Below, in pieces: positions 43,857 to 45,375 of a stretch of 64,000 nucleotides of DNA. The DNA is from Polynucleobacter sp. (lineage in GTDB: Bacteria > Pseudomonadota > Gammaproteobacteria > Burkholderiales > Burkholderiaceae): the NCBI RefSeq assembly GCF_030693775.1, contig NZ_JAUXZY010000004.1, forward strand, positions 62,001-126,000, written 5' to 3'. Made by a program: the position numbers and the translations under genes. Every line of letters starts with the position of its first letter. The stretch's first letter is position 1. Below the pieces are notes generated by a model, which worked only from the letters and a program-made list of their open reading frames with translations, was not told where the DNA came from and made no database searches.

Positions 43857-43885
43857 TTGCCCAAATCACGAAGTTCGGATAGAAT
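43857..43885 (+). promoter_or_regulatory. Promoter of metK
   Basis: -35 TTGCCC (43857-43862) and -10 TAGAAT (43880-43885) separated by 17 bases. Transcription would start near 43892, exactly where the leader hairpin begins, leaving a leader of about 118 nt before the metK ATG. Confidence 0.65.
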
Positions 43886-43891
43886 CCTCCC

Positions 43892-43974
43892 ATCGCCGAG
43901 TTAAGACAACTTGCGGGGCGATTAAAAATTCTGCTAAAGCGTCGCCGTTGTGGTTCCTGGCACGTCGAGTTGTC
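43892..43974 (+). promoter_or_regulatory. Structured metK leader with mutually exclusive helices
   Basis: Helix A: ATCGCC (43892-43897) pairs with GGCGAT (43917-43922), enclosing AGTT/AACT (43899-43902 with 43908-43911). Helix B: GACAACTTG (43905-43913) can pair with CGAGTTGTC (43966-43974), eight Watson-Crick pairs and one G-T, competing with the inner helix. I do not recognise it as a known SAM riboswitch class. A cis-regulatory role for the SAM synthetase message is inference from position and from the competing pairings. Confidence 0.5.
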
Positions 43975-44009
43975 CTACTGATCGTGTTAATTTTTAAAGG
44001 AAAAACGCA

Positions 44010-45176
44010 ATGGCAAATGATTATTTCTTCACCTCAGAATCAGTTTCTGAAGGCCACCCCGATAAAGTTGCAGACCAAATCTCCGATGCGATTTTGGACG
44101 CCATTTTGGCCCAAGATCCCAAGGCTCGAGTTGCAGCAGAAACGCTTTGCAATACGGGCCTAGTTGTCCTTGCAGGCGAGATTACAACCCACGCGAACGT
44201 GGATTACATCCAAGTCGCACGCAATACCTTGCGTGAAATCGGCTATGACAACACCGCTTACGGTATTGACTACAAAGGCTGCGCCGTCTTGGTCGCGTAC
44301 GACAAGCAGAGCCCAGACATTGCGCAGGGTGTGGATAAGGCCCATGACGACGGTTTAGATCAGGGCGCAGGCGATCAAGGCTTGATGTTTGGTTATGCCT
44401 GTGATGAAACTGCAGAGCTCATGCCTTTGCCGATTCACCTATCGCACCGCTTGGTTGAGCGCCAGTCCCAACTTCGCCGCGACGGCCGCTTAACGTGGTT
44501 ACGCCCAGATGCAAAGTCACAAGTGACGCTGCGTTACGTAAACGGTAAGCCCGACTCAATCGACACCGTAGTCTTATCAACGCAGCACGATGAAGATATT
44601 TCCCTCGAGAAATTACGTGAAGCAGTGATTGAAGAAATCATTAAGCCTGTCTTGCCAGCCCATCTGATTAAAGGCGACATTAAGTATTTGGTCAATCCAA
44701 CCGGTCGCTTTGTGATTGGTGGGCCGCAGGGCGACTGCGGATTAACCGGACGCAAAATTATTGTGGATACCTACGGCGGTGCAGCACCCCACGGCGGCGG
44801 CGCATTCTCGGGCAAGGATCCATCGAAGGTTGACCGCTCTGCAGCGTATGCGGGTCGCTACGTGGCGAAAAACGTCGTTGCGGCTGGTTTAGCAACGCGT
44901 TGCTTGATTCAGATTTCGTATGCGATTGGCGTAGCAAAGCCAACATCCGTGATGGTGAGTACCTTTGGTACCGGTAAGATTGCCGATGAAAAGATTGCTG
45001 CTTTAGTTGCAGAACACTTTGATCTGCGTCCGAAGGGTATTGTCAAAATGCTCGACTTATTGCGCCCGATTTATCGTAAAACCGCAGCGTATGGTCACTT
45101 TGGTCGTGAAGAGCCAGAATTTACCTGGGAGCAGTGCGATAAGGCACCAGCCTTACGCGCGGCAGCAGGCCTGTAA
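44010..45176 (+). CDS. metK: S-adenosylmethionine synthetase
   Basis: 388 aa. [26 protein letters not shown] is the N-terminal signature, and [16 protein letters not shown] is the ATP-binding motif. [26 protein letters not shown] is the phosphate-binding lid. It makes SAM from methionine and ATP and is preceded by AAAGGAAAAACGCA. It is the hub of the methyl cycle genes in this window (ahcY and metF follow). The start of the leader region is unusual; see the leader entry. Confidence 0.97.
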
Positions 45177-45241: not shown

Positions 45242-45245
45242 TACT

Positions 45246-45341
45246 CTCAAGGAGCGTTGCAAGGAACATTGCGAACCAATGATTCCCCAGGCTTGAGGGG
45301 GCAAGATCCGAACAGGAATTTGCTTTTTGCAACTGCGCTCG
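45246..45341 (+). ncRNA. S-adenosylhomocysteine (SAH) riboswitch
   Basis: CTCAAG (45246-45251) pairs with CTTGAG (45292-45297), and GAGCG-TTGCA (45252-45261) pairs with TGCAA-CTG-CGCTC (45328-45340). The conserved blocks AAGGAGCGTTGC, CCAGGCTTGAG and GCAACTGCGCTCGC match my recollection of the SAH riboswitch consensus of betaproteobacteria. It stands directly upstream of ahcY, the enzyme that removes SAH. SAH riboswitches turn genes on. Here the aptamer strand CGCTC shares bases with the 5-prime side of a downstream terminator, so SAH binding would prevent termination. Confidence 0.9.
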
Positions 45342-45375
45342 CTAACCCATGGCTCAATGGTTGGCGAGTTTTCTT
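45338..45375 (+). terminator. Terminator acting as SAH riboswitch expression platform
   Basis: CTCGCTAACC (45338-45347) pairs with GGTTGGCGAG (45359-45368), ten pairs including one G-T, with a further A-T pair at the loop side, and is followed by TTTTCTT. The bases CTC (45338-45340) belong to the aptamer helix as well, which provides mutual exclusion. Confidence 0.85.

Follow-up and report, generated by a model that had tools for sequence, protein, structure and literature searches.

The 64,000-nucleotide stretch of DNA analysed here (the window) carries metK, the SAM synthetase gene (44010–45176; TIGR01034, 611 bits), and just after it a SAH riboswitch of known type (RF01057; window 45243–45347; 47.7 bits, above threshold) that lies 5' of ahcY; an earlier note, made from the sequence alone, had remarked that RNA regulates ahcY in this genome. 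Our subject is the metK leader, all features of which lie, like the gene, on the forward strand. The earlier note had placed a promoter and a hairpin at the transcript start, and both are there: a sigma-70-type promoter, TTGCCC-17-TAGAAT (43857–43885), comprises a −35 box (TTGCCC, 43857–43862), a 17-nt spacer and a −10 box (TAGAAT, 43880–43885), and its predicted start, 43892, is the first base of hairpin P1. In a promoter scan this was the sole promoter-like site within 1 kb, where shuffled sequences average 1.4 sites. A −10-like box also lies at the right distance 5' of P1 in 81 of 100 metK leaders, as against 2 of 100 at a control position.

P1 is formed by AUCGCC (43892–43897) and GGCGAU (43917–43922), its strands being supported by order-wide covariation, and it encloses the inner helix AGTT (43899–43902)/AACT (43908–43911). 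Between the P1 strands lie, in turn, the third strand L1, GAGUUAA (43898–43904; numbered after PMC6061858, with its variants counted across leaders); the 5' strand of P2a, GAC (43905–43907), whose partner is at 43941–43943; AAC (positions 16–18, 43908–43910), the spacer between P2a and P2; and the 5' strand of P2, UUGCGG (43911–43916), that is, U19, U20, G21 and C22 plus two more bases. An A-rich linker follows (43923–43930), at the place where alignment A2 has a variable hairpin, P3, in other genera. The next segment (43931–43938) consists of the P2 3' strand CUGC, an unpaired U (U43935, equivalent to U47 in SAM-V/SAM-II numbering), AA (A48 and A49) and A43938, equivalent to A50. A further hairpin, P4, CGU[C]GCCG...UGGCACG (43940–43964), folds at −4.8 kcal/mol; GUC (43941–43943) is both the 3' strand of P2a and part of the P4 base, and these shared bases would be the switching bases. 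Directly 3' of this GUC is an anti-Shine-Dalgarno segment, GCCGUUGUGGUUCCU (43944–43958), whose complements, AGGAA and CAAUGGC, lie at the metK start. The genus-specific anti-aptamer strand GUUGUC (43969–43974) pairs with GACAAC (43905–43910), and the Shine-Dalgarno sequence, AAGGAA, can be read at 43997–44002.

The earlier note had drawn attention to a helix competing with P1's interior, in which GACAACTTG (43905–43913) pairs with CGAGTTGTC (43966–43974), 53 bases downstream. The complementarity is real (duplex −10.5 kcal/mol), and its core, GACAAC:GUUGUC, is kept with hardly any variation in 33 of 33 distinct leaders of the genus, but most leaders from other genera lack it, and we therefore rejected the 9-bp helix as the principal pairing conserved beyond the genus. 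The pairings that are conserved across the order are absent from the earlier note: a pseudoknot, UUGC/GC[U]AA, together with GAC:GUC (43905–43907 with 43941–43943), both of which compete with the inner AGTT/AACT helix. Folding of the single sequence is unremarkable: relative to dinucleotide shuffles, the z-score of the minimum free energy is −1.5 for the leader and +0.4 for the 85-nt core, values not beyond chance. The single-sequence fold being no better than that of shuffles, the case rests wholly on comparison.

That comparison begins within the genus, where the leader and the metK start are present in 148 of 151 genomes; across the 33 distinct leaders (alignment A1), 97% of cells show the proposed pairing, with compensated changes inside P1. 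A covariance model, R1, gave a match in 290 of 300 family genomes at E ≤ 10, a level at which only the stronger matches are safe; when twenty of the matches were read, 19 had the same core upstream of metK. Their layout begins with a TATAAT-like box and UUCGCCGAGUUAA-nn-GACAACUUGCGGGGCGAA; most then have a variable hairpin, after which come AAAUCCGCUAAAGCGUCGCC, another hairpin, the Shine-Dalgarno sequence and metK. A model rebuilt from A2, using metK leaders only (R2), found matches at E ≤ 1 in 268 of 399 order genomes, representing 132 of 158 genera, mostly 5' of metK; among the R2 matches listed, the best E-values run from 1e-22 to 1e-9. Scanning 85,000 named species for the core pattern returned at least 119 stretches; those listed come from betaproteobacterial lineages (Cupriavidus, Bordetella, Achromobacter, Thauera, Thiobacillus, Roseateles, Sutterella and others), from some MAGs whose lineage is not stated, and from three Pelagibacteraceae. 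Of 123 loci carrying the pattern, 100 have metK immediately 3'. GCUAAA is invariant in both alignments; as a search pattern in the window's own genome, TTGC..GCTAAA gave hundreds of chance matches and was set aside as uninformative.

Several individual copies deserve separate mention. One additional copy (L131; G235 C49), with an L1 of GAUUUAA, is not 5' of metK, and neither are four (L352, L354, L355 and L357; R2 E 1e-9 to 1e-13) from genomes of the class beyond the order. One Polynucleobacter leader (L076) has an internal duplication, AGTTAAGACA being repeated inside L1, which may perturb the aptamer.

Covariation among the relatives' leaders, which the earlier note had put forward as the check, was assessed in 48 distinct order-wide rows, gathered with the GCTAAA anchor, against column shuffles; these ignore relatedness, so that the following p-values are indicative. 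Five of the seven P1 pairs (3–7) are paired far above column shuffles, with many pair types (p ≤ 0.001 each), and one pair of pseudoknot P2, N30:N105, is paired in 98% of rows versus 85% when shuffled (p 0.0002; GC, AU, GU and CG). P2a is paired in most of the rows but is nearly invariant, GAC:GUC being paired in 28 of 28 wide leaders. Compensated double changes do occur (AAC:GUU in L200 and L207; AGC:GUU in L356), and the pairing is broken in four leaders (L186, L191, L205 and L217); over the 48 rows, P2a covariation as a whole is not significant, nor is pairing of a P2a extension in the order-wide rows. That the leader is regulatory and adopts alternative folds, as the earlier note proposed, is well supported, a SAM riboswitch being the likeliest kind.

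Position by position, the conserved core, G-A-[G/U]-U-U-A..[GAC]-AAC-UUGC..GC-U-AAA-GC-[GUC], corresponds to the SAM-V/SAM-II pocket. In that pocket, U9 and U20 lie beside the sulfonium, U47 pairs with the adenine and A50 holds the amino-acid end (PMC6061858). By sequence comparison, the SAM-contacting positions U9, U10, U19, U20, U47 and A50 are conserved in the metK leaders; UUGC is present in 47 of 48 and the AAC spacer in 45 of 48. Position 8 varies: the window has G there, as do 38 of the 48 leaders, and the other 10 have U.

Judged by its sequence, the metK-leader RNA shares its ancestry with accepted SAM-II aptamers, and we infer that it binds SAM and switches. We read the leader as a riboswitch of the SAM-II class, one that would turn off metK translation when SAM is abundant, and assign this reading a probability of about 0.82. 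At its thresholds, Rfam 15 gives no match in the metK leader, its one report being the SAH riboswitch of known type 5' of ahcY; with the SAM-II model, RF00521, the window's leader scores 12.8 bits against a gathering score of 36, a shortfall that explains why libraries and a 2014 survey overlooked it. We take the sub-threshold score to be a limit of the reference model and not a biological feature. When 15 leaders of the genus were compared with 4227 Rfam families at E ≤ 10, SAM_alpha alone was found, in 5 of 15 (15.4–19.4 bits), full length and in a single register. When 18 long loci were scanned with Rfam by E-value, SAM_alpha did not appear and all matches were at chance level, probably an effect of the filters, which longer sequence tightens; in a genome-wide SAM_alpha ranking, the window's site fell below chance matches and was not singled out.

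Two further links to SAM-II are drawn through relatives. The core is identical, G8 included, to that of the first aptamer of a tandem in Pelagibacteraceae, the second aptamer of which is a certain SAM-V (72.4 bits) and the downstream genes of which we read as bhmT and metY; R2 scores these first aptamers at E about 1e-10. R2 also finds certified SAM-II members at E 1e-8 to 1e-11, such as a metX leader (G517; SAM_alpha 52.5 bits, R2 E 6e-9) and the first copy of a tandem (G706; SAM_alpha 44.8 bits, R2 E 1e-8). Conversely, betaproteobacterial relatives recognised by R2 score 37–52.5 bits with the Rfam SAM-II model. The metK leaders further share the SAM-II trait of a start site just 5' of P1 in a methionine/SAM gene context. 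The other SAM classes fit less well: there is no match to SAM_V (RF01826) in the window's leader and none to SAM/SAH (RF01727) at E ≤ 10, and the Shine-Dalgarno sequence lies 54 nt 3' of GUC, thus not within P2a. The description of the leader as unrecognised holds in that it has no Rfam 15 threshold match and was missed by the 2014 survey (PMC4239095), but its type is known: SAM-II. Of the two results that the earlier note had named as refuting its view, one, a known family accounting for the leader, has largely been found in SAM-II, by way of Pelagibacter and of the betaproteobacterial sites that Rfam scores as SAM-II; the other, an absence of covariation across relatives, has not.

How might such an aptamer control metK? 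In the window, the anti-Shine-Dalgarno segment can pair through GCCGUUG..UUCCU with AGGAA..CAAUGGC (duplex −19.3 kcal/mol). In other leaders too, the segment directly 3' of the P2a GUC is complementary to the leader's own Shine-Dalgarno/start region, although with different sequences: CAGGCUC with GAGCCUG in L183, and CUGCUCC with GGAGCAG in L180. Over 49 non-redundant leaders, the mean energy is −21.4 kcal/mol with the leader's own Shine-Dalgarno region versus −16.4 kcal/mol with exchanged partners (permutation p ≤ 1e-4), a difference that partly reflects shared base composition; against dinucleotide shuffles of the own Shine-Dalgarno region, the mean z is −1.9, and 23 of 49 leaders pass 5%. 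This anti-Shine-Dalgarno segment doubles as the 5' arm of P4: a local fold holds the arm in 39 of 45 leaders, with hairpin energies moderately below those of shuffles (mean z −1.0), and in 33 of 45 the local hairpin takes at least two of the three P2a GUC bases. Complementarity to the own Shine-Dalgarno sequence and the bases shared by P4 and P2a led us to propose an anti-Shine-Dalgarno/anti-anti-Shine-Dalgarno switch.

We hypothesize that transcription starts at P1, and that with SAM present the pseudoknot would close (P2 plus P2a GAC:GUC), using bases of the P4 base and so freeing the 5' arm of P4, which would then pair with the Shine-Dalgarno sequence and start codon: the OFF state. Without SAM, P4 would form as an anti-anti-Shine-Dalgarno hairpin that holds this arm; in Polynucleobacter, GUUGUC would additionally take GACAAC and dismantle the aptamer, and the ribosome site would stay open long enough to be used: the ON state. 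In the window, with pseudoknots ignored, the OFF fold (−37.3 kcal/mol) is favoured over the ON fold (−26.3 kcal/mol) by 11 kcal/mol, and P4 is weak beside the anti-Shine-Dalgarno duplex (−4.8 against −19.3 kcal/mol); with OFF the more stable, ON would have to be kinetic, reached during transcription. There is some chance, which we consider much the smaller, that the aptamer is right and this platform is wrong, control being exerted by transcription termination or by steric hindrance from the pseudoknot. Most SAM-II riboswitches do act transcriptionally (PMC6061858), and the window's leader has a CACG..CGUG stem that, together with the UUAAUUUUU next to it on the 3' side, could be a weak terminator; yet a terminator scan scored none in the leader, the U-run is absent from more distant members of the genus, and the anti-Shine-Dalgarno complementarity tracks the own Shine-Dalgarno sequence of each species.

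Related elements lie before other genes. The metX leaders of four other genera (L372–L375) have a SAM-II core with GAUUUG, GCGCCGAUUUG..CUUGCGGGCGCG..CGGCUAAAGAGG, and one of them (L374) scores 52.5 bits with Rfam SAM_alpha, above threshold; the metXZ element described in PMC4239095 therefore appears, from these sequences, to be SAM-II. The metX leader of the window's own genome has no SAM-II-like element. Eight loci (L220, L222, L223, L224, L228, L229, L230 and L231) have SAM-II-like copies, mostly in tandem, 5' of a MATE/NorM transporter operon that also encodes a protein of about 100 amino acids, beginning MFDC or MYDC, without a Pfam or NCBIfam match; the tandems, which occur in several families, have a first copy with a terminator and a second of the metK type. 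MDR-II, considered as an account of the MATE contexts, was rejected: the overlapping Rfam matches are SAM_alpha. At two further loci (L225, 881–3078, and L226), a metK-type element is 5' of operons (HD domain; AAA ATPase-like) with a second metK-like gene.

These MATE operons and the prevalence of G8 raise the question of whether some SAM-II-fold RNAs are specificity variants for another ligand, such as SAH, methylthioadenosine or another adenosyl compound. U8 holds U47 in SAM-V (PMC6061858), and comparable substitutions have changed the ligand elsewhere, as in the spermidine variant of SAM-I (PMC10853860). However, the contacts to the adenine, the sulfonium and the amino-acid end (U47, U9, U20 and A50) are retained, U8 members exist too, and the tandem SAM-II of Pelagibacter, in the relatives that we read, also has G8; the isolated SAM-II domain of P. 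ubique, taken here from its description, is reported to respond to SAM (PMC11508383). We consider a non-SAM ligand improbable, and equally speculative the broader idea of an order-wide G8 subclass of SAM-II, ancestral to metK control, in which an altered triple would shift ligand preference or affinity, and metK and the MATE exporter would follow a SAM-related signal other than SAM alone. Least probable is a conserved leader under protein control or acting via mRNA stability, its likeness to SAM-II being coincidental or vestigial, for although the Rfam score is far under threshold and single-sequence folding is unremarkable, the pocket positions are kept while the helix sequences covary, the metK-only model R2 recognises certified SAM-II sites, and both types occur in tandem within one leader (L380).

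Taken as a SAM-II element, the leader probably lets the cell stop SAM synthesis when SAM is plentiful. metK is the essential SAM-making gene, and the element offers a testable answer to how betaproteobacterial metK is controlled, one covering most sampled genera of the order, to which Bordetella, Cupriavidus, Thauera and Thiobacillus belong. The metXZ element, which bears a name of its own, would on this evidence be of the same class, and the natural G/U variation provides a test of the role of position 8 in the SAM-II/SAM-V pocket. The 2014 survey of betaproteobacteria had left metK without a known regulator after a search for one failed (PMC4239095). In this order a well-known riboswitch class has been largely overlooked, since its members there lie beyond the reach of the reference model. 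SAM-II was first described from alphaproteobacteria, with few occurrences elsewhere and with the start site immediately before P1 as a described trait (PMC1273637); beta- and gammaproteobacterial and tandem SAM-II were mentioned later (PMC2258182, PMC2704228, PMC9481103), and the SAM-II/SAM-V tandem arrangement is described in PMC2704228 and PMC11508383. In the literature, as far as we checked it, metK is not named as a SAM-II target in betaproteobacteria, and the wide distribution of metK SAM-II there is unreported.

Compared with known systems, the metK leader shares with SAM-II (RF00521, SAM_alpha, the metA motif) an H-type pseudoknot, an L1 with GA[U/G]UU, the UUGC/GC[U]AAA core, a putative P2a with 3-nt spacers, a start site beside P1 and a methionine/SAM gene context. 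Spacers of 3 nt also flank P2a in metX SAM-II, in agreement with the Rfam consensus. The L1 consensus of SAM-II is GAUUU; that of the window, GAGUUAA, keeps U9 and U10. Unlike RF00521 members, the metK leader has a sub-threshold Rfam score, mostly G in place of U8, metK as its target, in most genera a variable hairpin that separates P1 from the 3' core, an anti-Shine-Dalgarno/anti-anti-Shine-Dalgarno platform as proposed here, and a betaproteobacterial home. In the Pelagibacter tandem, the SAM-II aptamer shares the core of the metK leader, GAGUUAAGACAACUUGCGGG..GCUAAAGCGU, with its G8, but a terminator and a SAM-V aptamer come after it, the genes under its control are bhmT or metY, and its P1 is different. 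With SAM-V (RF01826), the leader has in common the pocket, the pseudoknot, a P3 hairpin at the same place (in most genera; PMC6061858) and, as proposed, a translational OFF logic, but its Shine-Dalgarno sequence is outside P2a and Rfam SAM_V does not match it. The SAM/SAH riboswitch (RF01727) is likewise upstream of metK, with an H-type pseudoknot and translational control, but is confined to Rhodobacterales and has no Rfam match in the metK leader. The metXZ element of Leyn et al. (2014; PMC4239095) is, like the metK leader, a betaproteobacterial methionine-gene RNA with a pseudoknot, and metX leaders have the SAM-II core; it differs in having L1 GAUUUG and a terminator, and in lying upstream of metX instead of metK.
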